Of a stretch of 12,697 nt of DNA, positions 1-12,697 are shown piece by piece; the stretch's first letter is position 1; every line of letters starts with the position of its first letter. The notes beneath the pieces were generated by a model. That model made no database searches. It saw only the letters and a program-made list of their open reading frames with translations, and was not told the origin of the DNA. The stretch comes from Deltaproteobacteria bacterium (GTDB taxonomy: Bacteria; Myxococcota; Polyangia; Polyangiales; B10-G4): the NCBI GenBank assembly GCA_019312705.1, contig JAFDCW010000037.1:1-12697 (forward strand), read 5' to 3'. The position numbers and the translations under genes are program-made.

Positions 1-104
1 TAGGGGGAGGCGGGGCCGGTTTCTCGCGCTACGTTGCTGGAAAGAAACGGGCGGCCTACGGCGGAGAAGAGGGCGCCCGGTACGCCTACGCGGCCGATGT
101 CGCG

Positions 105-938
105 ATGCTCAACGCCTTCCGCCGCATGAAGCCCGTGGAGCTGGCCGCCTCGTCCACCGTCCGCATGTACAAGGACGTCTACAAGAACAAGCTCCTCGGC
201 ACGACCATCAAGGTCACGGAGCGGCAGTTTCCGAGCATCTACTCCGTTGCTCGGGAATGCGCCGAGACCCTCGATGTCGCCGTGCCGCAGGTCTACATCG
301 CGAATAGCCCTGTGGTGAACGCCTATACCTTTGGCACCGACGACGACGCCTTCATCGTCGTGCACTCGGCCCTGGTCGATCACTTCGACGCGGACGAACT
401 CAAGTTCGTCATCGGCCACGAGACGGGGCACATCCAGAACAAACACGTCATCTATAATACGGTGCTCATCCTGCTGAAAACGGCAGCCTCGTTCTTGCGC
501 TATCTGATGCCGCCGGCGGAGGTCGCGTTGCAGGCGTGGTACCGCCGCGCCGAGGTGACCTGCGACCGGGCTGGGTTGCTCTGTTGCGGAGACCTCGAGG
601 CCGCGTCCCGGTCGTTCTTGAAGATGGCCTGCGGCTCGAAGAAGCTCTACGAAGAACTCGACGTCGACGAGTACCTGAATCAGGCCGATGAAGGCCGCCA
701 GGGCATCGGGCGGTTGACCGAACTCTTCGCCTCGCACCCCTATCTCCCCAAGCGCATCGAGGCCATGCGGGTCTTTGCCGAGAGCGAGATATATCGCCGC
801 GCCATCGGTGTGGGGGACGACGGACTCACCATGGAAGAAGTCGACGACCGGACCCACGAAATCATCCGGATCGTGAAGACTCAGAAGTTGCAGAAGGCCC
901 AGAAGTCGGAAGACGAGGAGGACTCGAGTGTCGATTGA
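105..938 (+). CDS. M48-family zinc metalloprotease (HtpX/Ste24-like), start uncertain
   Basis: Probable zinc-dependent endopeptidase. Visible residues: the zinc-binding helix HETGH at residues 105-109 (HEXXH), the downstream third ligand E150 in RRAEVTCDRAG with D154, and the late HP...R element at 211-217, all in M48 order. Family members degrade or process proteins, often at membranes. Unlike HtpX, this protein lacks four clear membrane spans; only residues about 116-135 are notably hydrophobic, so it may be cytosolic or peripheral. The C-terminal 20 residues are a charged, probably disordered tail. The next gene, a dynamin-like GTPase, overlaps it by 11 bp, so the two are probably co-translated. 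Start: 105 is the first in-frame ATG, but no Shine-Dalgarno precedes it and the frame stays open to the left edge without another start codon. The true start may lie outside the window, although the upstream codons have weaker G/C third positions than the gene. Substrate unknown. Confidence 0.86.
   Translation: MLNAFRRMKPVELAASSTVRMYKDVYKNKLLGTTIKVTERQFPSIYSVARECAETLDVAVPQVYIANSPVVNAYTFGTDDDAFIVVHSALVDHFDADELKFVIGHETGHIQNKHVIYNTVLILLKTAASFLRYLMPPAEVALQAWYRRAEVTCDRAGLLCCGDLEAASRSFLKMACGSKKLYEELDVDEYLNQADEGRQGIGRLTELFASHPYLPKRIEAMRVFAESEIYRRAIGVGDDGLTMEEVDDRTHEIIRIVKTQKLQKAQKSEDEEDSSVD
915..921 (+). promoter_or_regulatory. Shine-Dalgarno of the dynamin-like gene
   Basis: GAGGAGG lies 6 nt before the GTG at 928, inside the end of the protease gene. 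It decides in favour of the GTG start and supports translation of the GTPase from the same transcript as the protease. Confidence 0.75.
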
Positions 939-2694
939 TTTTCGCGCCGGTAAGGCGGATGTGCTCGCGTGTTTGCGAGAGGTAGCGGGGTTGGCCGAAG
1001 ACTCCGGCGCTGAGTCTCTCGCCGACAAGCTCCGGGACGACCGCATCCCCCGCCTCGAGGGTGAGCGATTTCATCTCGTGGTGCTCGGGGAGTTCAATCA
1101 CGGCAAGACCACCTTCGTGAACGCCCTCCTCGGCGAGCGGGTGCTGCCCGTGGGGGTCACTCCCACGACCGCCCTGATCCACCACATCGAGCACGGCGAT
1201 ACGCCGAGCGCGCGGGCGGTGTCGGAAAACGGCGACAAGGTCGATGTGCCCATCGGGGACCTGGAGAACTTCATGGTCGGCGGCGATGGCGCCCGGGACG
1301 ACGTGCACTTTCTCGAGATGTCGTACCCCTCGACGATGCTCGCCGAGGGCGTCGTGCTCGTCGATACCCCCGGGGTCAACGACCTGAACCACCAGCGCGC
1401 GGAGATCACCTACGGATACATCCCGCGGTCCGACGCGGTCATCTTCCTCCTCGACGCGGGGCAGATTCTCAAAGAGAGCGAGCGCCAGTTCATTGCGAAC
1501 AAGTTGCTCGCTGCCTCGCGCGACAAGCTGCGCTTCGTGATCAACAAGGCCGACCTCCTAGACGAACCCGAACAGCAGGAGGCTCTCGCCTACGCGCGCA
1601 AGCACCTCGCCGAAATCGTCCAAGACCCGAAGGTCTTCTTGCTGTCCGCGGAGCGTGCCCTCGAGGGCGACCGCGAAGACTCGGGCATCGACCCCTTCGT
1701 GGCTGAACTCACGCGCTTCTTGCAGCAGGAGCGGGGCCGCGTTTTGCTCGACAACGCCCTCGACCTCGCCCTGCGTACCTCTGGCGTGCTGCGGACGAGC
1801 GTCGAGGTGCAGAAGCGCGTGCTCTCGATGGAGCAGAGCGACCTCGACGGGCGTCTGTCCCGGCTCGAAGCGGACCTCGACGGGTCCGAGTCCACTGTCG
1901 AAGCACGCGAGCAGGCCGTTCGCGAGGCCCTCGCGGCGGTCCGGGCCACCACCCGCAAAGAAGTCGTCGATTGGGCCCATGCCTTTGCCGCGTCCCTTCC
2001 CGAGGAGATCGAGGCGAGCAAGGCCGATGACCTGAGGCGCTACCTACCGGGCTTCATCGAGGAGCGCTTTCGCGAGTTCGCGGACCAGGAGGCAAACGAA
2101 GTAGCCAAGCGCCTCGAGCGTGTCGCGGAGCAGGCCATCGCGTTTGTCACCGAGGACGCCGAGGACAAGGCAAACCGTCTACGGGAGGTCCTCGGCCCCG
2201 CGGCCCAGAGCCTCGACCTGAAGGTGAATACCTTCGCCTACGACGTCGGCGTCTTTGCCCTCGGTGCCTTCGGCGTGACCATCATGGCGCTGTCGAACGT
2301 GCTCGTCGGGGGCGCCCTCACTCTCGCGGCACCCATCCTTGCCTACGTCTTCCGCGGCCGTGCGGACCAGCGGGTCAAGGAGCGCGCCCTCGAAGAAGGC
2401 CCCAAGGCCATCATCGAAGCGGCCGAAAAGCTCGCGGATGCATTTGAAGCACAGATCGACGTCTTCGGCGACAAGCTCGTCGACTTCGTGCGACGTGCCA
2501 CCGAGGAGATGACCCGGTCCATCGCCGATGTGATTCGCACCGCCCGGGACGCCAAGCGGGAGGGCGAGTCATCGATCCAGCAACTGGAGGCCGCGACCGG
2601 TTCGGTCATGGCCCGCCTCGGCGCCGTCGACGACCGCATGAAGTCGCTGCGCGCGGGGCTCTGGGCAAACGGGACAGGGACCAACGGAGGCTGA
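928..2694 (+). CDS. Bacterial dynamin-like GTPase with membrane-inserting paddle
   Basis: A 588-residue dynamin-superfamily GTPase. The GTPase domain covers about residues 45-270: G1 P-loop GEFNHGKT (54-61), G2 threonine in TPTTA (78-82), G3 DTPG (146-149) and G4 NKAD (206-209). Long charged helices follow (about 290-430), with predicted coiled coil around 295-345. A hydrophobic hairpin at about 439-474 has glycine-rich small residues and matches the membrane-inserting paddle of bacterial dynamin-like proteins. A second helical segment (about 480-575) closes the protein. The family uses GTP-driven assembly to bend, fuse or repair membranes; the role here is not known. The GTG start is supported by a strong ribosome site in the preceding gene. 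It overlaps the M48 protease gene by 11 bp, suggesting a functional pair, for example membrane remodelling plus quality control (inference). All GTPase motifs look intact. Confidence 0.9.
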   Translation: MSIDFRAGKADVLACLREVAGLAEDSGAESLADKLRDDRIPRLEGERFHLVVLGEFNHGKTTFVNALLGERVLPVGVTPTTALIHHIEHGDTPSARAVSENGDKVDVPIGDLENFMVGGDGARDDVHFLEMSYPSTMLAEGVVLVDTPGVNDLNHQRAEITYGYIPRSDAVIFLLDAGQILKESERQFIANKLLAASRDKLRFVINKADLLDEPEQQEALAYARKHLAEIVQDPKVFLLSAERALEGDREDSGIDPFVAELTRFLQQERGRVLLDNALDLALRTSGVLRTSVEVQKRVLSMEQSDLDGRLSRLEADLDGSESTVEAREQAVREALAAVRATTRKEVVDWAHAFAASLPEEIEASKADDLRRYLPGFIEERFREFADQEANEVAKRLERVAEQAIAFVTEDAEDKANRLREVLGPAAQSLDLKVNTFAYDVGVFALGAFGVTIMALSNVLVGGALTLAAPILAYVFRGRADQRVKERALEEGPKAIIEAAEKLADAFEAQIDVFGDKLVDFVRRATEEMTRSIADVIRTARDAKREGESSIQQLEAATGSVMARLGAVDDRMKSLRAGLWANGTGTNGG

Positions 2695-2708: not shown

Positions 2709-4391
2709 CTATTCGTCGAAGTCGAGGACATCGACGTCGATGTTCCAGCGCACCCCGTCCCCGGCGGCGTCTCCGGCAGGCCCGGCAGTCGTCCGAAAGA
2801 AGAGTTCCTGCCCCTGCCGCATGTCGAGGGTGAGCACGTGGCCCGCCGTTCCGCCGTGGGTGAGCCGGGCGGGTCCCCAGAGTACGTGCTCGCCGTCGGT
2901 GATCTCCACCTCGGTCCCGTCGCCCGAGGTTCCGGCGTCCGTCGCTGAGACGGTGACGCGCATGCGGGCGCTTAGCGGCGCTGACCATGCGATCTCGGCA
3001 GCACGGCCCGCACTGGGCTGGACCATCGACGTGCCCACGGAGGCCTCCATGCCCTCCCAGCGGCCGCTGCGGCGATCATAGACCAGCGATGTGGGTGCGC
3101 TCCCCGGTGCGTGTTCGAGGTAGGTCCAGTAGCCATCCCCGCGGGCGCTGCTCAGGTCCTCTGGGAAGCTCCAGGACGAGCCATGCATGGCCGCTGTCGC
3201 CTCGGCGAAGCGTCGGCCGAGGGTCAACGTGCTCGCCGAGTCGTAGTGGGCGGGATCTGCTGCGTGGGTGCGCAGGTCATTGGTCTCGACGGCAATCATC
3301 GGACCGAGGTCGTCCGCCAGTCGAGAGGTCCCGCTGCGCACCGCGTCGGCGTGGGGCCAGAGATCTTGGTCCGAGATCAGGCCGGCGGTCACAGGGACCA
3401 GCGGCACCCCGATGTCCTCGCGAAGCCTTTCGATGAACGCTCGCAGCCGCGCCTCGTAGGCCCCCGCATCGCGCCTGCTGAAGGCGTCGGACTCCCCCTG
3501 CATCCACACGAATCCCGCGATCTGCGGTCGCCATTCGATGTGAAGATCGCGCATCTGTTGCTCGACCTCCTGCACCAGGAGCCGGTAGAGGTCTCCGGTG
3601 CCCGCGGCCCAGCGATCGGACAACGCCGTGGCTCCCTCGGCCACTTTGAGGATGGCGATGGTGCGTCCCGGCCACAGCTCATGCAGGCGTCGCCCAAACG
3701 AAAGCTCGGGCCCGAAGCGGTCTGCGAGCACGCCGAACCCCGGGCGCAGCCCGGTCCAGCGCATCGCATTCGGATTCGGGTGGACCGAGTCGTTGTAGTA
3801 GATGTGAGCTTGCGGCACGGAGGCGGCGTCGGCGGCTCCTAGCTCGCTGTTGATGCCCAGGCCAACCATGTTGGACTGGCCGGCGAGGATGACGACGGTG
3901 AGGCGCGGCTTCTTCGGGGCGCACGAGATCTCTTCGTCGACGAGTCCGTCACAGTCGTTGTCGAGCTCGTCGCAGGTCTCGGCGGCCGGAGACCTCGGGA
4001 CGCACAGTTGCCAAGCGCCGCCGCTGCATGACTGATCGCCGGCGCCTCCACAGAGATCCGAACAGGCTCGGGTGAGGCCCTCGTCGACGACTCCGTCGCA
4101 GTCGTTGTCCCGTCCGTCGCATACCTCGGCCCCGTCGCAGCTCGCATCGGGGGCGGCGCCATCTGTGGGCGATGATCTGCCATCGGGGACGGATGTGGCG
4201 CCGTCGGTGACGGCCGAGGAGCCGTCGACGCGGTCCGTGCCGGCGTCGAAGTCAGCCTCGCCGTCCGGCAGTGTGGCGGCGGCCGTGACGCTGCACCCCA
4301 GGGCCGCCAGTGCGGAGAGCGCGAGCATGAGCGGGATGGGCGCGAGCACCGAGCGCCTTTGCACGATGCCTGTCGTCGTAAGCTCGCTCAT
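2709..4391 (-). CDS. Secreted SASA/CE6-type acetylesterase lipoprotein with two MopE-like motifs
   Basis: A 560-residue predicted exported carbohydrate acetylesterase. The N-terminus has a positive-hydrophobic signal segment ending at C33 (ALGC, a weak lipobox), then an Asp/Gly/Ser-rich linker (about 40-85). Two E(V/T)C..xDNDCDGxVDE motifs (88-105 and 137-154) follow; this MopE-type calcium/metal-binding motif is common in secreted myxobacterial proteins. The catalytic SASA domain (about 163-405) shows block I GQSNM with nucleophile S173, WMQGESD (296-302) and candidate catalytic H382 in an AHYDS context. Residues about 450-560 form a beta-rich, probably carbohydrate-binding C-terminal domain. 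The family removes acetyl groups from xylan, sialic acid or other glycans; substrate not determinable here. The start at 4391 is chosen because it overlaps the upstream lipoprotein stop as ATGA and directly precedes the signal peptide. The longer frame upstream of it reads through that gene and lacks export features. No Shine-Dalgarno, so translation probably depends on coupling. Confidence 0.85.
   Translation of the reverse strand: MSELTTTGIVQRRSVLAPIPLMLALSALAALGCSVTAAATLPDGEADFDAGTDRVDGSSAVTDGATSVPDGRSSPTDGAAPDASCDGAEVCDGRDNDCDGVVDEGLTRACSDLCGGAGDQSCSGGAWQLCVPRSPAAETCDELDNDCDGLVDEEISCAPKKPRLTVVILAGQSNMVGLGINSELGAADAASVPQAHIYYNDSVHPNPNAMRWTGLRPGFGVLADRFGPELSFGRRLHELWPGRTIAILKVAEGATALSDRWAAGTGDLYRLLVQEVEQQMRDLHIEWRPQIAGFVWMQGESDAFSRRDAGAYEARLRAFIERLREDIGVPLVPVTAGLISDQDLWPHADAVRSGTSRLADDLGPMIAVETNDLRTHAADPAHYDSASTLTLGRRFAEATAAMHGSSWSFPEDLSSARGDGYWTYLEHAPGSAPTSLVYDRRSGRWEGMEASVGTSMVQPSAGRAAEIAWSAPLSARMRVTVSATDAGTSGDGTEVEITDGEHVLWGPARLTHGGTAGHVLTLDMRQGQELFFRTTAGPAGDAAGDGVRWNIDVDVLDFDE
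3930..4130 (-). repeat. Paired DNDCDG (MopE-like) motif region
   Basis: Two copies of an E-C-x(3)-DNDCDG-x-VDE protein motif sit 49 residues apart within the acetylesterase. At DNA level 3934-3962 and 4081-4109 match at 27 of 29 positions, an imperfect direct repeat with a 147-bp period. The intervening stretch has paired cysteines (C110, C114, C122, C130) suggesting a disulfide-bonded module. Resembles the Cu-binding MopE family repeat; the metal actually bound is unknown. Confidence 0.75.
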
Positions 4392-5986
4392 CGGACGGTG
4401 ACCAGCCGTTCGGCAATCGTTCGACGGTTTCCGTCCGTGTCGGTCGCGATGATCTCGACCAGGTGCGGGCACTCGGTGGGCGCTCCGAAGTCGTAGCTGC
4501 CCGAGTAGCCCACTCGACTGCAGCTCGGGTAGCCGGGCCAGACCAGGCATACGTCCGGTCGGTTATCGCCATAGCGCATGGGCACGGTCACGCTCCCGTC
4601 GATGCGGGCCTCGACCGATGCGACGCCCCGGTTGTCGAGGGCCCATCCGTGAAACGCGACGGTCCCCGTGCTCACCTCATTCGTGGGAGCGTCGAGGGAG
4701 CCGAAGGCGGGCATCGTCCGGAGGAGCTCCGTGGCGTCGGCCTGAATCGTGGCGAAGGAGCCGACCAGGAGATAGGCCCGGGCGTACACGGTCCCGCGAG
4801 CGGGCAGGCCGAAGATGATCCTGGAGCGCACGTTGTTGAAGGGCAGAGAGCGCTTCTGCCACCCTTGGAAAGCGCTCAGCCCGTTTTCGTAGAGGATGGC
4901 GACGCCGTAGCTCAGGTCGCTGTTCTGGAGTGAAACCCAGGGGCCGCTGGCGCGGAAGTTCTCGTAGAAGAAGCCGTCGGCGTCGCTGGGCGTGTCGATC
5001 GGGACCTCTCTTCCACTCGGGTCCATCAAGCGCCAGAGATCCTGCATGCCGCGTTGCCCGTTCGAGGTGTACATCGTGGGCATCTCTTGCCCCGTGGCGC
5101 CGTGGGCGATGTCCCCGAGGTTCTCGACGGTGTAGCGGAGCTCGGCGACGCGGGGCCGGACGAACCGCATAGTCTGGGTGAGACGCACGTCACTCGGGGG
5201 CCTCGAGGCCGCCCCTCGCGAATCACAGCTGTCCGAGCTGCACTCGTGGGCGTCCCAGTCGGGATTCCACTGGAGTGGTACGGTGGTGGTGATGAGGCTG
5301 CCGGGGCCCGTGCTCACGGACTCCGTCGGCGAGCCGTTGTTGCACCGGTTGCCGCCCTGGACCGGGTTCCAGCCAAGGTAGCGAATCGAAAGCGGACAGA
5401 TTGGGGACCGGGCGCAGCTGGCGTTCCAGGAACAGCCCTGCACTGTGCGGTCGGGGTCGTAGAGGGCCACCTGGACCTCGCGGCCGGTGTCGTTGGCGTC
5501 AATGGTGTTGGTGTTGTTCTGCCCGGGCCCGGTGCCGGCCTCGCCAAAGAAGGTGACGCTGCTTCCCCACTCTCGGCGGATTCCCAGCTTGTAGGCGCCG
5601 CTGGCGTCGTACAGGTATTCGTCGGTGAAACCGCCGGTGCGTACGGTCTCCGTCCGGCCGGAGACGTGGCCGAGGGGCGCGTCGGTGATGAGCGGGCGGC
5701 CGCCGTAGGGGCATCCCGGGATTCCGGAGTCGGTGCCCGTGTCCGCCGGGGGCAGGGTGGCATCCGAGGTGCGCCCCCCGTCGCTCGGAGACGACCCGCC
5801 GTCCGGGGCCGGCCACCCGGCGTCGGCGGGCAAGGGCGCGGTTCCGTCGGAGGGGGTACCGCTATCGGCGGAGATTGCCGCGTCGCCCGTGGGCGGGGCG
5901 CCCGGGGGGCCTGCGGGACTGCAGGCAGAGAGCATCGCGAGGGAGCCGGCGAGGGAGCCGACGAGGAGCAGGTGGGTGCGGCGCAT
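4388..5986 (-). CDS. Large lipoprotein of unknown function with C-terminal Ig-like domain
   Basis: A 532-residue protein I do not recognise by family. It has a clear lipoprotein signal: MRRTH, a hydrophobic core, and lipobox LSAC with C22 as the lipidated residue. Residues 23-90 are an Asp/Gly/Pro/Thr-rich low-complexity linker. The globular part (about 91-430) is beta-rich with many Asn, Trp and Gly residues and several cysteines (C185, C191, C197, C215, C249, C254), as in exported disulfide-bonded carbohydrate-active proteins; no catalytic motif could be assigned. Residues about 432-532 match a bacterial Ig-like domain (EVSTGTVAFHGWALDNRGV, then VEARIDG, NRPDV and ATDTDGNRR). The start at 5986 gives a proper signal peptide; an in-frame GTG at 6010 would add eight residues and neither has a convincing Shine-Dalgarno. 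Its stop overlaps the acetylesterase start (ATGA), so the two are probably expressed together and may act on the same extracellular glycan (inference). Confidence 0.85.
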   Translation of the reverse strand: MRRTHLLLVGSLAGSLAMLSACSPAGPPGAPPTGDAAISADSGTPSDGTAPLPADAGWPAPDGGSSPSDGGRTSDATLPPADTGTDSGIPGCPYGGRPLITDAPLGHVSGRTETVRTGGFTDEYLYDASGAYKLGIRREWGSSVTFFGEAGTGPGQNNTNTIDANDTGREVQVALYDPDRTVQGCSWNASCARSPICPLSIRYLGWNPVQGGNRCNNGSPTESVSTGPGSLITTTVPLQWNPDWDAHECSSDSCDSRGAASRPPSDVRLTQTMRFVRPRVAELRYTVENLGDIAHGATGQEMPTMYTSNGQRGMQDLWRLMDPSGREVPIDTPSDADGFFYENFRASGPWVSLQNSDLSYGVAILYENGLSAFQGWQKRSLPFNNVRSRIIFGLPARGTVYARAYLLVGSFATIQADATELLRTMPAFGSLDAPTNEVSTGTVAFHGWALDNRGVASVEARIDGSVTVPMRYGDNRPDVCLVWPGYPSCSRVGYSGSYDFGAPTECPHLVEIIATDTDGNRRTIAERLVTVR

Positions 5987-6145: not shown

Positions 6146-7477
6146 CTAGCCCCGCTCTTCGCTGCGCATCAGTTCGGCGAAGGTCTCGCGCTGACGAATC
6201 ACGCGGAACTCACCCTCGTCGATCAGGACTTCGGCCGGCCGCGGGCGGGAGTTGTAGTTACTCGCCATGACCATGCCGTAGGCCCCGGCGCTCATGATGG
6301 CGATGAGGTCGCCGCGCTCGAGGGGCGGCAGGAGGCGGTCCTTGGCGAGCCAGTCGCCGCTCTCGCAGACCGGGCCGACGACGTCCGCGAGGGAGCGGGC
6401 CACCTGAGAGGGCGGGGTCTTGACCGGCGAAATGCCATGGTGGGCGTCGTAGAGGGCCGGGCGGATGAGCTCGGACATGGAGGCGTCGACGATGACGAAG
6501 CGCTTCTCCCCGCTCTCCTCGGACTCGCCGGCGACGGCGTCGGGTCGGTAGGGTTGGTCCTTCACGAAGATTACCCGGGATACGAGCGTGCCCGCCTCGC
6601 CGACCAGTGCGCGGCCAGGTTCGACGATGACTTCGAGGCCGAGGTCGTCGGCTCCGGCGTCGGCCAAGCCGTCGCGGATCGCGTCTCCGAATGTACGCGC
6701 CTCGGGGAAGTCGTCGCTCTCGTCGCCGTAGGGGATGGGCCAGCCGCCGCCGGCGTCGAGGGTGCGAATCGGGGCGCCAGCGTCGCGGCAGCGCTTGGCC
6801 AGGGCCGCCGTGGCGCCGACCGCCTCGCGCAGCGACGAGACGTCGCCGATCTGTGAGCCGATATGGCAGGTCACGCCCTCGAGGACGAGGCGCTGGCTCC
6901 GGAGGATGCGCGGAAGCAGCTCTTCGGCGACGCCGACCTCGAGGCCGAACTTCGTGTGGTGCAGGCCCGTGGCGATGTACGGATGGGTCTTCGGGTCGAC
7001 ATCGGGGTTGATGCGCAGGGAGATTGGAGCCTCGACCCCGAGGCGTTCCGCGATGGCCTCGATGGCTTCGACCTCCTGGGCGCTCTCGACGTGGATCGAG
7101 CGAATCGACGCGCGGAGGGCAGCCTCGATCTCTTCGTCGCGCTTGCCGACGCCGCTGAAGACGATGCGGTCGCCGCCGATGCCCACTTCGAGGCAACGCG
7201 CGAGCTCGCCGCCGGAGACGATGTCGGCGCCGGCGCCGAGGTCCCGGAGGCGTGCGAGGACGGCCAGGTTGGAGTTTGCCTTCACGGCGTAGGCGATCAG
7301 GTGCGGCGCGAAGGAGAGGGCTTCGTCGATTGCCGCATAGGCTCGGTCGATCGATGCGCCGCTGTAGACGTAGGTCGGCGTGCCGAACTTTTCAGCGATC
7401 TTGGTGAGCGATACGCCGTCGCAGAGCAGCTCTCCGTCGACGTGGGCGTAGTGTCGAGATTTCGGAATGCCACTCAT
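6146..7477 (-). CDS. lysA: Diaminopimelate decarboxylase
   Basis: A 443-residue fold-type III PLP enzyme that decarboxylates meso-diaminopimelate to L-lysine, the last step of lysine synthesis, in the cytoplasm. Visible signature: PLP-binding lysine K66 in AYAVKANSN, H205 in CHIGSQ, the glycine-rich phosphate loop DAGGGW (241-246), EPGR (286-289), the active-site cysteine region CESGD (371-375) contributed across the dimer, and GAYGM with Y400. Length and order match LysA. A short acidic insertion (about 312-325) is the only mild oddity. The start ATG overlaps the argH stop as ATGA, and GAGGAG lies 5 nt upstream inside argH, so translation is coupled. Argininosuccinate lyase next to LysA is a known arrangement in deltaproteobacterial Arg-Lys-DAP clusters; dapA and dapB do not follow here. 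Confidence 0.96.
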   Translation of the reverse strand: MSGIPKSRHYAHVDGELLCDGVSLTKIAEKFGTPTYVYSGASIDRAYAAIDEALSFAPHLIAYAVKANSNLAVLARLRDLGAGADIVSGGELARCLEVGIGGDRIVFSGVGKRDEEIEAALRASIRSIHVESAQEVEAIEAIAERLGVEAPISLRINPDVDPKTHPYIATGLHHTKFGLEVGVAEELLPRILRSQRLVLEGVTCHIGSQIGDVSSLREAVGATAALAKRCRDAGAPIRTLDAGGGWPIPYGDESDDFPEARTFGDAIRDGLADAGADDLGLEVIVEPGRALVGEAGTLVSRVIFVKDQPYRPDAVAGESEESGEKRFVIVDASMSELIRPALYDAHHGISPVKTPPSQVARSLADVVGPVCESGDWLAKDRLLPPLERGDLIAIMSAGAYGMVMASNYNSRPRPAEVLIDEGEFRVIRQRETFAELMRSEERG

Positions 7478-8907
7478 GGTCGCTCCTCGGCGCCGTGGGC
7501 CTTGGCGATGGTTTCGATGTCGACGGTGAAGCCCGTGAGGCGCTCCCGGAGCTCGGCGATGGCGGCTTCGACCCGCGCCCGCTTGGGCCCGCCGGGCACG
7601 TCCCGGCGTTCTACTGCGGTCTCCATGTCGAGGGCGCCGTATACGCCGTCGTCGAAGGCCGCGTGCTCTTCACGGTACACATCGAGGGGAAGGTCCGACA
7701 GCGTCTTCCGGTCGGCGACCGCTCGGGCTACCAACCGCCCAGAGACGTGATGGGCGTCGCGGAAGGGCACGCCCTTCGTGACGAGGTAGTCCGCGACTTC
7801 GGTCGCGTCGAGGAAGCCGGTCGCAAGGGCAGCGCGCATCGCGTCGACGCCGAACCGGGCGGTGGCGATTGCCCCGGTCAGGACCGCGAGGCTGTCGTTC
7901 ACGGTGTCGAAGGCGTCGAAGACCGGCGGCTTGTCCTCTTGCATGCCCCGGTTGTAGGCCAGCGGCAGGCCCTTCAGCATGACCAAGAGGGTGACCAGGT
8001 CGCCCACCACTCGGCCGGTCTTGCCTCGGACGAGTTCGGCCATGTCGGGGTTCTTCTTTTGCGGCATCATCGACGAGCCAGTCGTGAAGGCGTCGCTCAT
8101 ACGTACGAAGCCGTACTCCTGGCTGCTCCAGAGGACGAGTTCCTCGGCGATGCGGCTCAGGTGCACTGCGCAATTGGCTAGGCCGGCCACAAACTCCACC
8201 AGGAAGTCGCGGTCGGCGACGGTGTCGAGGGAGTTTCGGGTCGGTCGGTCGAAGCCGAGGGCCGCTGCCGTTGCGTCACGGTCGATGGGGAAGGTCGTCG
8301 CGGCGAGGGCGCCGGCCCCGAGGGGGCACTCGTTGAGGCGTCGCGCGGCGTCCTCGAGGCGACCGCGGTCGCGGAGAAGCATCTCGGCCCAAGCGAGCAG
8401 GTGGTGGGCCAGGCGAACGGGCTGGGCGCGCTGGAGGTGCGTGTAGCCCGGCATCAAGACATCGACGGTGCCAGCGGCGCGCACGGAGAGCACAGCGACT
8501 AGGCCCTCGATGGCCTCGGCGGTCTTGCGGCAGGCCCGGCGAACCCAGAGCCGCATGTCCGTCGCGACCTGGTCGTTGCGGCTGCGTCCGGTGTGCAAGC
8601 GTCCACCGGCGTCGCCGATGTTGGCCGTGAGCCGGGACTCGATGTTCATGTGCACGTCTTCTTTGTGCACGTCCCATTCGAACTCGCCGTCTTCTATCTC
8701 CTTCTGCACTTGACCGAGGCCGGTTTCGATCTTTTCGGCATCGCCGGCCGGGATGATCCCGCGGTTCGCCAGCATGCGCACGTGGGCGATCGAACCCTCG
8801 ATGTCCTCGCGATAGAGGCGGCGGTCGAACGAAACACTCTCGCTGAATCGGGGCGCAACGTCGTCGATCTCTTCTTCGAATCGTCCGCCCCAGGCCTTGT
8901 CGCTCAT
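7474..8907 (-). CDS. argH: Argininosuccinate lyase
   Basis: A 477-residue fumarase/aspartase-superfamily enzyme that splits argininosuccinate into arginine and fumarate, the last step of arginine synthesis; normally a cytoplasmic homotetramer. Seen motifs: N-terminal WGGRF (6-10), HTGRSRNDQVATD (105-117), THLQRAQP (156-163) with the conserved histidine, the superfamily signature GSSMMPQKKNPD (277-288) carrying the catalytic serine, and LAYNRGMQEDK (316-326). Length fits the family. ATG at 8907 is preceded by a GAGGAGA ribosome site (8913-8919) which overlaps the stop codon of the P-type ATPase-like gene, 10 bp away. The downstream end overlaps lysA by 4 bp. All catalytic motifs are intact. 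Confidence 0.97.
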   Translation of the reverse strand: MSDKAWGGRFEEEIDDVAPRFSESVSFDRRLYREDIEGSIAHVRMLANRGIIPAGDAEKIETGLGQVQKEIEDGEFEWDVHKEDVHMNIESRLTANIGDAGGRLHTGRSRNDQVATDMRLWVRRACRKTAEAIEGLVAVLSVRAAGTVDVLMPGYTHLQRAQPVRLAHHLLAWAEMLLRDRGRLEDAARRLNECPLGAGALAATTFPIDRDATAAALGFDRPTRNSLDTVADRDFLVEFVAGLANCAVHLSRIAEELVLWSSQEYGFVRMSDAFTTGSSMMPQKKNPDMAELVRGKTGRVVGDLVTLLVMLKGLPLAYNRGMQEDKPPVFDAFDTVNDSLAVLTGAIATARFGVDAMRAALATGFLDATEVADYLVTKGVPFRDAHHVSGRLVARAVADRKTLSDLPLDVYREEHAAFDDGVYGALDMETAVERRDVPGGPKRARVEAAIAELRERLTGFTVDIETIAKAHGAEERP

Positions 8908-8917
8908 TACTGTCTCC

Positions 8918-11110
8918 TCAAGCCGGCGCCGGAACGCGGAGGTCTACCCGGCGCAACAGCCGGGCGCCGGAAGGTAGCGCATATGCGTCGATTAGGGCGG
9001 CGGCGAGGGCCGCCGCCGCCGGGCCTGCGAATGCCAAGGCGGCGGCTACGATCACCACGCAGCCGGCGATGGCGGCGACGAGGGTCGCCCGGGTCGCCGC
9101 CTCGCGAGCCGCGTGGGCGATGAAGAGCGCGCCCGCCGCATCGCGGATGTCGTGGGTGGTCAGGGCGACGGTGCGACCGTCCCCCTCGGCACCCGCGGCG
9201 CCGAGGATGATCGCCGTGTCGGCCTCGGCGAGGGCGGTGTCCTCGGAGTCCGGGTGGCCGACCACGGCGACTTCGACTCCGGTTTCCCGGAGCCGCCGCA
9301 CCTCGTCGCCGCGGGCCTCCGGGAGTAGCTCGGCGCGCACGTTCACGACGTCGATCTGCCGCGCCAGCGTTGCGGCGGTGGTGCGGTGGTCTCCGGAGAG
9401 CAAGACCACCTCGGTGCCGAGGTCGAAGAGGCGTTGTACAGCGGCTCGGGAGCCCGGGCGGACCGGGTCATTGAGGGCCAGCACGGCGCGCACTCGACCG
9501 GCGATTCCGACGAAGAGGACCGTGTCGCCGCGGGCCTCCGCTCTCCCTGCTTCCTCGTCGGCGACCGCAATGCTCACGCCTTCGTCGAGCAGCAGTTGGC
9601 GATTGCCGATGACGAGGGACTCGCCATCGGGGGTGAGGGCCGTGACGCCCCGTCCCGGGAGGCGCAGGGCCCTCCGAACCGTGGCCGGTGCCACGTTTTC
9701 GGACTTGGCGTACCGAGCGATGGCGCGACCGATTGGGGTATCTCCGGCGGCATCTTCCGCACCGGTGACGAGGGAGAGCACTCTAGCGGCCTTCGCGCCT
9801 CCGGTAGGGTGCAGCTCCATGACTTCGAATTCGCCTTCGGTGACCGTGCCTCGGGTGGTGAGCGCGCAGACCCCGACGCGTCCGGCGCGTTCGAGCTGAG
9901 CCCCGGATGCGAACGTGATTCCCCGGGCCGCCGCAGCGGCGCCGGCGGCGGCGAGGGGAAGCGTCGCTGCGCGCCAGAGAGAGACGAGGGGGGCCGCGAG
10001 GAGGACCGCGCCGACCGCCGAGAGGGCCGCGGGAAGTCCAGCGCCCATTCCCAGGGCGAGGACCCCCGCGACGGCAGCCAAGATGCCACCGAGGAACGAA
10101 ACGCGCTGGGCGCGGCGCACCCCCGGGCTGGTCTTCGGTCCTGCGTCGGCTCCGAAACGTGCAGCCCGTGCGATCGCCCGCTCCGGACCGACCCGGGTGG
10201 CGACGAGGCGAAGTGCGCCGTCGGTAACCCGGGCGCCGGCGAGGACCGGTTCGCCGGCGCGCCGCGTCACTGGCAGGCGTGCGGCGGGGTGGGGAAGCAC
10301 CGAGGCCGAGCCCCCGACGGTCACGCCGTCGACCGGCACCACTTCGCCGGCGATGCACAGCACCTCTTCCCCGGTGCGCAGGCCGGCGGCGTCCACTTCC
10401 GAGAGAGCGAGTTCGCCGTGGCTGCGCTCATCTACGGGAACGCGGGCTTTCGCCGGGAGCAACGCGGTCAGATTGGCCAGCGCGCGGTCGATGGGTTGGC
10501 GTGCGCGCTCGTCGAGGAAGATGCGGCCGTTGACGACGGCTGCCGCGAGGGCGGCACCGAAGAGGCCCGCCCACGTCTCGGTTCCTTCGAGGGTTCCCAA
10601 GAGCGCGCCCACCGCGGCGAGGCTCGCCCCGAGGGGGGCTGCCAACCAGGCCGCTGCGCCGATGTCTCGTTGGGCCAACCGGCTGCCAAAGGCCGCAGCG
10701 GCCACCGACGCAAGGGTCGCCGCCGCGCTCGCCATGGCGACGAAGGGCACGGTGCCAAAAAACGACAGGGCGGCGCCGACGCCGGCTGCGCCGAGGCCGA
10801 GCCACGGGGGGGATACGTCACGAACCTCGACCTTCGTCGGCCGGGCGAGGGGGTCGAGGGCCGAGGGGTCGTGGGTGCGAATTATGCCCGTGTGCGGGTC
10901 CTTCCGCGGTGTGATGATGACCGGCGGACGAAAGCTCTCGTGGGTTCGCTCGCCTTCGAGGAAACGGGTCCGACACATCTGGTCACAGAGGTAGCGCAGC
11001 CCGCCTACGTAGGCGACGACCTCCCGCGCGCGGATCGGGTCTACGTCGCTACCGCAAACAGGGCAGGGCCTCGAAGGCAGAACGGGACGCGCCGGATGCA
11101 CCGGCACCAA
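8918..11110 (-). CDS. P1B-type ATPase-like membrane protein lacking catalytic residues (pseudo-ATPase)
   Basis: A 730-residue homologue of heavy-metal P-type ATPases that probably cannot pump. The N-terminus has C16-x2-C19 and C42-x3-C46 (YHS/TRASH-like metal site). Hydrophobic spans lie at about 103-145, 152-172, 180-196, 338-378 and 674-712, in P1B order. The actuator keeps GEVVPVDG (255-262) but lacks TGE (the region reads SVLPHPAARLPV). The sixth-span CPC is replaced by AAPL (372-375). The phosphorylation motif DKTGTLTEG is TTRGTVTEG (418-426): Asp becomes T418, Lys becomes T419. HP is TP (458-459), GDGxND is GHPDSE (618-623), while SGD (572-574) remains. Neither alternative minus-strand frame encodes DKTGT there, so a frameshift does not explain it. 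TTG start supported by GGAGGGG 9 nt upstream; GTG at 11107 is an alternative. Possible roles: metal sensing or buffering, or a regulatory partner of another pump (inference). Tightly upstream of argH. Confidence 0.88.
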   Translation of the reverse strand: MVPVHPARPVLPSRPCPVCGSDVDPIRAREVVAYVGGLRYLCDQMCRTRFLEGERTHESFRPPVIITPRKDPHTGIIRTHDPSALDPLARPTKVEVRDVSPPWLGLGAAGVGAALSFFGTVPFVAMASAAATLASVAAAAFGSRLAQRDIGAAAWLAAPLGASLAAVGALLGTLEGTETWAGLFGAALAAAVVNGRIFLDERARQPIDRALANLTALLPAKARVPVDERSHGELALSEVDAAGLRTGEEVLCIAGEVVPVDGVTVGGSASVLPHPAARLPVTRRAGEPVLAGARVTDGALRLVATRVGPERAIARAARFGADAGPKTSPGVRRAQRVSFLGGILAAVAGVLALGMGAGLPAALSAVGAVLLAAPLVSLWRAATLPLAAAGAAAAARGITFASGAQLERAGRVGVCALTTRGTVTEGEFEVMELHPTGGAKAARVLSLVTGAEDAAGDTPIGRAIARYAKSENVAPATVRRALRLPGRGVTALTPDGESLVIGNRQLLLDEGVSIAVADEEAGRAEARGDTVLFVGIAGRVRAVLALNDPVRPGSRAAVQRLFDLGTEVVLLSGDHRTTAATLARQIDVVNVRAELLPEARGDEVRRLRETGVEVAVVGHPDSEDTALAEADTAIILGAAGAEGDGRTVALTTHDIRDAAGALFIAHAAREAATRATLVAAIAGCVVIVAAALAFAGPAAAALAAALIDAYALPSGARLLRRVDLRVPAPA

Positions 11111-11156: not shown

Positions 11157-12697
11157 CTATTCCTCGATGAAGACGAAGGTTCCGTCTCTCGGCCCAGCAA
11201 ACATGCCGTGCCAGGCGGCGGGCAGGGTCGGGGTGCTCCAGGAGAACATCCACCGGGCGTCTGCGGGGGCGAGGTTTACACATCCGTGGCTGCGCACGCG
11301 CCCGAAGGAGTAGTGCCAGAACGCCCCGTGGATGGCGAAGTTGCCGTGGAAGTACATGGTCCAGGGCACGTCCTCGATGCTGTAGGCCCCCTCGGGGTTC
11401 GAGTCGTCGTCCATGGTCGTCGAGACGTGCTTCGACTGAATGCGGTAGAGGCCCACCGGCGTCTCGAAGCCTTCCTTGCCCGTCGACGTCAGAGTGGCGA
11501 AGACCGGGGTCTCGCCCTCGTAGGCGACGAGGTATTGGTCCGAGAGATCGACGTGGATCCACTTCGCCCCGGCTGGCACTCCCGGGGGCACGGCGCGGTG
11601 GCGAACGATGCGCAGGGAAGACTCGCGCACGATGGCTCCATCCCGTGACACGACGTAGCGCCGGTCTCGGTAGACTAGGTCGTCGTCGGCGATGCGCAGG
11701 GCCGAATGGCGGTCGAGGGTGCCCCGGTCGCGCATACGGCCCGTCGCGGGTTCGCGGCGGAGGCTGTGCACGCCCGTGCGGTAGACGATGCCCACGGGCA
11801 GCATCCAGTCCCCGCCGAGGACGACGCCCCGGCTCTCGGGGGGCTCGTTCGGTGTGAGCTCCGTGGCGCGCACGTAGCCCCCGCGGACCGTGCGGTAGAA
11901 GCGGCGTCCTGCCTCACTCGCTTCTTCCTGGTCGACGCTCACATAGAAGCCGCGGAGCATGCGGGTGCGCAGGTAGTCCGGCAGGTCCGGCTCTTCGGCG
12001 GCTTCGGTTTCTGCTTCCGTCTCGGCGTCGGTGCCCGGGGGCGCTGGGGCCTCGACCGCCGACGCGCGCTCAGCCCCGGCTTCGCCCTCGGCGTGGGCTG
12101 GCGAGTCGCCCTCTTCGCCCGAGGTGCCGTCTTCTTCGGTCGCAGAGTTCGCCGCGCCTGAGCCGGCGTCGGGGGCGGCGATGGCTTCTCGGTTCGCGTC
12201 CCTCGCGGCCGCTTCTTCGGCGCGGCGCCGGGCCTGCTCGCGGGTCGCCAGATCCCGGATCGCCTCTTCGGCCTCGGTCTCCTCGGCCATTGTCGGGATG
12301 CGGAAGTACTGGGGGACGACGTCCCGCATCGTATATGCGTAGAGGTAGGGCAGGGCGTCCTCGAGGGCCGCGGGGTTCGGTGAAGGCTCGAAGGTCTGGG
12401 GCGTCTCGCCGATCACGAAACCGCGTCCGGCGCATACGAAGCCGCCCCCGGGGACCTCGTGCCACGCGCGACAATCGCGGCCCCGGACGGATGCTCTGGT
12501 CCGAAACTGGCTTCCCCGACGCATGTAGCCGATGGGGCGCTCACCGTCGGGTTCGCCGAAGACCTGGGCGACGAAGTGGTAGACGACCCCGTGCAAGGGA
12601 TAGGCGGCCTCGAAGGCGGCGCGCTCGGCGGCTACCCGGGCCTCTTCGGCCACGCGAATGCGCTCGGCCTCGGCGAGGCGCCCCGCTTCTTCGGCTT
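11157..12697 (-). CDS. L,D-transpeptidase (YkuD) with SH3-like domain, 5' end outside window
   Basis: Partial gene; the frame is open to the right edge, so the start and any signal peptide lie beyond it. GTG at 12653 is unlikely to be the start, because the 14 codons before it continue the same Ala/Glu/Arg-rich helical (coiled-coil-like) sequence. Counting from that GTG: an SH3-like segment with C61 and C74 (about 20-85), a long acidic Ala/Glu-rich linker (about 122-225), a further beta-rich region (about 230-350), and the catalytic YkuD domain (about 363-498). The latter has H442 (IHGAF) and SHGCVN (455-460) with nucleophile C458. The family forms 3-3 peptidoglycan cross-links or attaches proteins to peptidoglycan in the periplasm, usually at meso-diaminopimelate. 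The catalytic motif is intact. The pseudo-ATPase gene follows after 46 bp; lysA, which uses meso-diaminopimelate, lies further down the same probable operon. Confidence 0.92.
   Translation of the reverse strand, partial: AEEAGRLAEAERIRVAEEARVAAERAAFEAAYPLHGVVYHFVAQVFGEPDGERPIGYMRRGSQFRTRASVRGRDCRAWHEVPGGGFVCAGRGFVIGETPQTFEPSPNPAALEDALPYLYAYTMRDVVPQYFRIPTMAEETEAEEAIRDLATREQARRRAEEAAARDANREAIAAPDAGSGAANSATEEDGTSGEEGDSPAHAEGEAGAERASAVEAPAPPGTDAETEAETEAAEEPDLPDYLRTRMLRGFYVSVDQEEASEAGRRFYRTVRGGYVRATELTPNEPPESRGVVLGGDWMLPVGIVYRTGVHSLRREPATGRMRDRGTLDRHSALRIADDDLVYRDRRYVVSRDGAIVRESSLRIVRHRAVPPGVPAGAKWIHVDLSDQYLVAYEGETPVFATLTSTGKEGFETPVGLYRIQSKHVSTTMDDDSNPEGAYSIEDVPWTMYFHGNFAIHGAFWHYSFGRVRSHGCVNLAPADARWMFSWSTPTLPAAWHGMFAGPRDGTFVFIEE

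Follow-up and report, generated by a model that had tools for sequence, protein, structure and literature searches.

P-type ATPases are defined by a phosphorylated aspartate, and a protein that lacks this residue, TGE and the Mg2+ site is unable to go through the Post-Albers cycle. Pseudoenzymes such as pseudokinases and pseudo-HAD proteins have lost catalytic residues, yet they keep their fold under purifying selection and part of the ligand pocket; we know of no P-type ATPase family of this kind. A search of open-access papers found no P-type ATPase pseudo-ATPase, pseudoenzyme or DKTGT-less family, and the review PMC10654040 describes none in the passages that a word search picked out. In apicomplexan guanylate cyclases a P-type ATPase module serves signalling, but according to the relevant passages of PMC7858053 the P4-ATPase-like domain keeps the conserved Asp and its authors conclude that it is catalytically active, unlike the protein described here, which has no such Asp. 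A second point of comparison is the TRASH/YHS-type finger, a small Cys-rich module that also occurs on copper ATPases and that the N-terminal finger of our protein resembles; according to PMC4626032, related YHS modules can sense copper.

The gene lies in a 12,697-nucleotide stretch of a contig from a Deltaproteobacteria bacterium (JAFDCW010000037.1), hereafter the window. An initial annotation, made from the window's letters, had taken it for an intact P1B-ATPase homologue that lost its catalytic motifs and was kept by long selection for a non-pumping role.

Results

A P1B-type frame without its catalytic motifs

The features of the gene, in the order of its protein, are as follows.

8918..11110, minus strand: P1B-ATPase-like pseudo-ATPase, 730 aa, TTG start
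10973..11065, minus strand: Cys4 finger C16, C19, C42 and C46 with D-P-I-R-A (family consensus VDPLRA)
10268..10297, minus strand: lost TGE site, residues 272-281, no TGE
9983..9997, minus strand: lost CPC site in helix M4, A-A-P-L-V, residues 372-376 (AAPL 372-375)
9845..9859, minus strand: lost DKTGT site, T-T-R-G-T, residues 418-422, with Arg in place of the first Thr
9521..9790, minus strand: N-domain, residues 441-530, E452 and G486-x-G488 retained, His of HP replaced by T458
9389..9397, minus strand: TGD retained as SGD, residues 572-574, Asp at 574 in 59/76 loci
9311..9313, minus strand: P-domain Lys replaced by Arg (R600); Arg in 70, Gln in 5 and Lys in 1 of 76 loci, Lys in 32/32 canonical pumps
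9242..9259, minus strand: lost GDGxND site, G-H-P-D-S-E, residues 618-623, with a basic residue where the Mg2+ Asp would stand

The 730-codon frame is open without break from its TTG start at 11110 to 8918. Its protein matches Pfam E1-E2_ATPase (PF00122, 47.3 bits, cut-off 28.1) and Hydrolase (PF00702, 53.8 bits, cut-off 26.4), and the NCBIfam heavy-metal P-type ATPase model TIGR01525 at E 1.1e-59 with 202.8 bits, under that model's 346-bit cut-off. The closest solved structures by sequence are CopA proteins (E 8.5e-38). The open frame and these matches bear out the claim of an intact, full-length P1B homologue. An AlphaFold2 model (pLDDT 94.4, pTM 0.88) compares with CopA PDB 7r0g at Foldseek TM scores of 0.65/0.72, with the same domain order, and its P and N domains lie within 1.8-2.0 A of CopA 3a1c/3a1d/3a1e over 264 residues. 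The two Pfam matches and the fold matches give the P1B-type order of A, P, N and membrane domains and common descent with P1B pumps, and the predicted model preserves the fold of CopA together with a large part of the nucleotide pocket. Opposite the gene, a plus-strand frame of 594 aa gave no Pfam match, and it and the other opposite frames were taken as GC-rich artefacts; no promoter or terminator scored above shuffled sequence.

Motif columns were counted in 76 loci, namely the window, 18 loci from a phylum sample and 57 from an order sample, with proteins extracted by profile (the start of the L057 copy, missed by the gene caller, was chosen by hand), and 32 canonical P1B-ATPases from the phylum sample served as control. 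DKTG and GDGxND are absent from all 76. At column 418, where every canonical pump has the phosphorylated Asp (32/32), the family has Cys in 40 loci, Leu in 12, Ser in 12, Ala in 4, Val in 2 and six single residues that include Phe, Met, Pro and the Thr of the window copy, and never Asp or Glu. Two columns on, the Thr of DKTGT (32/32 canonical) is Arg in 54 loci, His in 13, Ser in 5, Thr in 2, Asn in 1 and Gln in 1; in the clade of the distant relative in L052, the old Asp position is followed by A-R-G-T-L/V-L in 120/120 proteins listed. The TGE Glu, present in 32/32 canonical pumps, is Ala in 66/76 loci, Asp in one, a gap in one and Glu in none. The Mg2+ Asp of GDG (column 619, Asp in 32/32 canonical) has been replaced by a basic residue in 62/76 loci (Arg 41, His 20, Lys 1) and is Asp in one. 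Arg, His or Lys at column 420 or 619 is thus found in 70/76 loci, at both columns in 59, and in none of the 32 canonical pumps, with six loci non-basic there; the same holds for 113/120 and 120/120 proteins listed by the window and L052 searches, respectively.

The transport site has changed as well. Cys is found at columns 373-376 in 32/32 canonical pumps, against 0/240 family proteins and 1/18 other loci (L047). Some members of the third clade, to which L047 belongs, retain one Cys at the old CPC site ('TPCA' in 4 and 'SPCA' in 1 of 50 new proteins), so a residual metal site is possible in that part of the clade. The M5 Asn is found in 0/76 family loci versus 31/32 canonical pumps, and M4-M6 contain no Cys, His, Met, Asp or Glu that both main clades conserve. 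A loss of the M6 Met, indicated by one alignment and not reproduced by another, is not claimed. Pattern matches to 'TGE', 'SPH' and 'CPCA' turn up in a few family proteins; in the 240 proteins tested they fall off the aligned TGE and CPC columns, and the CPCA of P0270 sits within its finger, whereas the single Cys ('TPC', 'APC') at the old CPC site in part of the third clade is genuine. Seven very divergent proteins (P0271-P0275, P0290 and P0291) are eroded further in the TGE region and P-domain residues, and retain the finger wherever the N-terminus is complete.

Part of the machinery is kept. The nucleotide-pocket glycines G486 and G488 are present in 76/76 loci, and the final Asp of GDGxND, Glu in the window copy, is Asp in 237/240 family proteins and 73/76 loci. 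The His of HP is retained in 53/76 loci; the window copy has TP (residues 458-459), and nucleotide binding would therefore be weakened there. The initial annotation had placed TTRGT, the missing TGE, AAPL, TP and GHPDSE correctly, and its catalytic losses stand, but not its wording that every key motif is replaced, since SGD, E452 and G486/G488 are kept.

A separate family in Myxococcota

Three protein searches, each scoring only about 8000 candidates that shared most words, were made with the window protein (213 matches), a distant relative in L052 (592) and L047 of the third clade (284); the best 120 of each were used and the window's own record, P0002, was left out. Neither DKTG nor GDGxND occurs in the 120 + 120 proteins listed by the window and L052 searches. 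The best 120 of the 284 L047 matches comprised 60 family proteins (50 new, 10 already seen) followed by 60 proteins that were all canonical, with no intermediates between canonical and dead forms among them. Both motifs are absent from 290/290 family proteins among the best matches listed, the window and L052 proteins included, and no mixed motif forms occur in 34 selected aligned proteins (27 family, 7 canonical). A separate public metagenome-assembled contig holds a 93%-identical copy that differs in the DKTGT/GDGxND motif residues only by S for T418.

In trees, one branch parts 19 family from 32 canonical proteins with 100/100 support, and the same split has support of 100 when 76 family and 32 canonical proteins are placed by FastTree, where long branches call for caution. 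In a sample of Myxococcota, the phylum of the closest relative (L001), 81/140 genomes gave a match at E <= 1e-30; the 18 top matches belong to the family, and the 12 that follow, with which the set of loci ends, are canonical. A P1B match at E <= 1e-30, canonical when fetched, is also present in 9/18 family-bearing genomes of this sample. In the class of L001, 12/116 genomes match at 1e-50, all already seen. In the order of genome G126, which from protein source names we infer to be Polyangiales, 71/115 genomes have exactly one match at 1e-60, a count that leaves room for a second, weaker-scoring copy per genome and is a lower bound, because at least three of the 44 genomes without such a match (G037, G052 and G057) hold a weaker-scoring member. 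Source names on family proteins, where given (most have none), are Polyangiaceae, Sandaracinaceae, Sandaracinus, Sorangiineae, Myxococcales, Myxococcota and Deltaproteobacteria. This is an old P1B-type pseudo-ATPase family of Myxococcota, and most genomes sampled from the one order hold a single copy. Some members carry the public labels 'Cu+-exporting ATPase', 'P-type Cu+ transporter' or 'cation transport ATPase'; these pump and transporter labels are probably wrong.

Purifying selection

Between the window copy and its 93%-identical relative L059, dN/dS is 0.150 (NG86), or about 0.105 from YN00 values, and the neighbours in the same comparison give 0.067 (argH) and 0.130 (YkuD). The ratio is 0.060-0.236 across 14 family pairs, with two canonical pairs at 0.150 and 0.158; four further family pairs give 0.129, 0.173, 0.208 and 0.322, the last being a more distant pair. 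In another pair, the pseudo-ATPase has 0.173 versus 0.115 and 0.074 for its arg neighbours, and its higher ratio points to looser constraint. The family evolves under constraint, yet faster than the adjoining arg genes. The initial annotation had named orthologues with intact DKTGT, or a family dN/dS near 1, as findings that would overturn it; the 290 listed proteins and 76 loci contain no such orthologue and the ratios are low, and together with the separate branch they support its proposal of long selection for a non-pumping role. The particular roles that it put forward, metal sensing, storage or partnership with another pump, are candidates, and it did not include the arginine linkage or the conserved finger.

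Arginine-biosynthesis genes beside the family

The neighbours of the gene in the window are the following.

11157..12695, minus strand: YkuD-type L,D-transpeptidase with SHGC motif (PF03734, 79.7 bits, cut-off 23.4), upstream, running off the window end
7474..8907, minus strand: argH, argininosuccinate lyase (TIGR00838, 616 bits, cut-off 279.5), 10 nt downstream of the pseudo-ATPase
6146..7477, minus strand: lysA, diaminopimelate decarboxylase (TIGR01048, 464.8 bits, cut-off 297.9), overlapping argH by 4 nt

The minus-strand order is therefore YkuD, pseudo-ATPase, argH and lysA. Across the family, arginine-biosynthesis genes adjoin 57/76 copies: argH lies directly downstream in 31, with lysA seen after it in 27, argH is divergent upstream in 2, and argD or argF is directly upstream in 24. 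The gap between match edges before argH is 13-30 nt in 21/31 loci. Neighbours were identified by tblastn at E <= 1e-15 with query proteins taken from a few loci, a procedure that may overlook divergent arg genes; the arg genes of representative loci were named by NCBIfam. With E <= 1e-10, argD, argF and argH were found beside 0/32 canonical pumps within shorter flanks (loci of 3158-4797 bases), one weak argH match coinciding with a fumC match. The 19 loci with no arg neighbour comprise 9 with short or cut flanks and 10 whose two flanks each span roughly 4 kb or more.

The occurrence of the two arg arrangements in distant clades, with small gaps, suggests that linkage has been maintained. An ancestral order argD-argF-pseudo-ATPase-argH-lysA, since split in two, would explain both arrangements; no locus with both halves of this order was seen among the 76. 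The linkage may also be historical.

Other genes recur. A YkuD homologue is near the pseudo-ATPase in 23/76 loci, and 10 of the 19 loci that lack an arg neighbour have one; loci with YkuD include the window (11157-12695), L047, L111, L113, L120, L125-L127, L141, L143 and L156. Copper inhibition of L,D-transpeptidases has been described, but a copper link through this neighbour, present in 23/76 loci, was set aside as too indirect. A Fur-family gene, its match under the Fur cut-offs, is downstream in 15 of the 76 loci, in the argD/argF clade (L048, L051, L052, L054, L055, L142, L147, L148, L150-L153, L155, L157 and L159), and a gene for 5-formyltetrahydrofolate cyclo-ligase often comes next. 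fumC is divergent upstream in one clade (L043-L045, L130-L140) and also adjoins 2/32 canonical P1B pumps (L064 and L068). Elsewhere in the window, an M48-type peptidase gene cut by the window edge overlaps a dynamin-like GTPase gene (3-2694, plus strand), and a minus-strand gene at 2709-4550 encodes a SASA-type esterase that carries Cu-binding MopE repeats (PF11617, 31.4 bits, cut-off 27).

The N-terminal finger

Residues C16, C19, D24, R27, C42 and C46 do not vary across an alignment of 16 loci, and the pattern is found in 68/76 loci within the first 300 residues; of the 8 loci without it, some are copies cut by contig ends. It is present in all clades, including loci without arg neighbours. 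Pfam DUF7576 matches 13/16 members at E <= 1 (best 3.4e-6) and gives the window copy 16.9 bits, under its 27-bit cut-off; matches to TRASH, zf-FCS and ribosomal L24e-type fingers are weaker. From its Cys pattern the finger would be a metal-binding module, although with weak, below-cut-off profile matches in the window copy its metal binding is putative.

Discussion

What might a P-type ATPase do without its phosphorylated aspartate? Compared with CopA-type pumps, the window protein lacks the phosphorylated Asp, TGE Glu, GDG Asp, CPC and P-domain Lys, and it has a Cys4 finger (VDPLRA consensus) and basic residues at the old catalytic site. With no aspartyl-phosphate, usual Mg2+ binding or CPC metal site possible, it should not be a pump, and we infer that catalysis and transport are absent. 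The clade is conserved and under purifying selection and, judged by its residues, catalytically dead; like pseudokinases and pseudo-HAD proteins, it has lost catalytic residues and retained fold and part of the pocket. The protein is almost certainly a conserved, non-pumping pseudoenzyme. There is next to no chance that it is a decaying pseudogene or misassembled copy of an ordinary copper pump, a reading favoured by the motif loss itself and nothing else: the motifs occur in 0/76 loci and 0/290 listed proteins, dN/dS is 0.060-0.236 in 14 pairs, and a single copy is present in at least 71/115 genomes of one order. The 93% copy on a separate contig, the 75 other loci and the dN/dS values rule out pseudogene, sequencing or assembly error and chance.

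What the pseudoenzyme does is less clear-cut. We tentatively favour, with somewhat less than even confidence, a non-pumping membrane pseudo-ATPase that acts as a ligand-responsive sensor or scaffold tied to arginine and diaminopimelate (DAP) enzymes. Its sensing parts would be the Cys4 finger and the remodelled, basic site of the P and N domains, with metal, nucleotide or another anion as the ligand, and the membrane-embedded protein would control or tether the arginine/diaminopimelate enzymes whose genes adjoin its own. Several findings weigh against this reading: 19/76 loci have no arg neighbour, 10 of them despite long flanks; the pseudo-ATPase is under looser constraint than the arg genes next to it; the window copy has lost the HP His; six loci have no basic residue at column 420 or 619; and some third-clade members keep a Cys at the old CPC site. 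Taken separately, the functional tie to these enzymes is possible if doubtful, and the sensor or scaffold mode of action lies on the unlikely side.

A conserved membrane metal sensor, store or chaperone unrelated to arginine, with the arg neighbourhood as inherited gene order, is unlikely but a serious contender. The finger occurs in all clades, also where arg neighbours are absent; 19/76 loci have no arg neighbours, 10 of them with a YkuD neighbour instead; a Fur-family gene is downstream in 15/76; and related YHS modules can sense copper (PMC4626032). Yet the argH-downstream and argD/argF-upstream arrangements in distant clades, with gaps of 13-30 nt, suggest maintained linkage, and metal binding by the finger is read from a Cys pattern whose DUF7576 match in the window copy is below cut-off. 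It is improbable that the protein partners a canonical P1B pump in the same cell to regulate or inhibit it, for example in a mixed dimer. Canonical matches at E <= 1e-30 do occur in half (9/18) of the phylum-sample genomes that bear the family, but the fetched canonical loci sit elsewhere in the genome, and none was seen beside family copies in the fetched regions, a weak point as those searches used arg, Fur, YkuD and family references only. P1B pumps are not known to us to form working mixed dimers. An enzyme or carrier with altered chemistry, in which Cys or Ser at the old Asp column is a new nucleophile or the protein a passive carrier, is more improbable still: the 40 Cys and 12 Ser among the 76 loci, and the frequent retention of TGD and of the final Asp of GDGxND, would suit it, but column 418 is also Leu (12), Ala (4), Val (2), Phe, Met or Pro, and Thr in the window copy, the Mg2+ Asp has given way to a basic residue in 62/76 loci, and M4-M6 hold no Cys, His, Met, Asp or Glu conserved in both main clades.

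A more specific form of the favoured sensor or scaffold reading, itself unlikely, is that the pump was turned into a membrane switch, its phosphoryl-Asp/Mg2+ centre remade from fixed basic residues; the switch would bind nucleotide or another anion without turnover while the finger ties metal status to arginine/DAP synthesis; the pseudo-ATPase would then possibly be a membrane platform for Arg enzymes. If this were true it would be, to our knowledge, the first P-type ATPase clade shown to have traded pumping for regulation. An old, selected clade without the Asp and other catalytic groups suggests that the P-type fold can be retained for non-pumping use, and its linkage to arginine operons is a concrete, testable lead to its function in myxobacteria.
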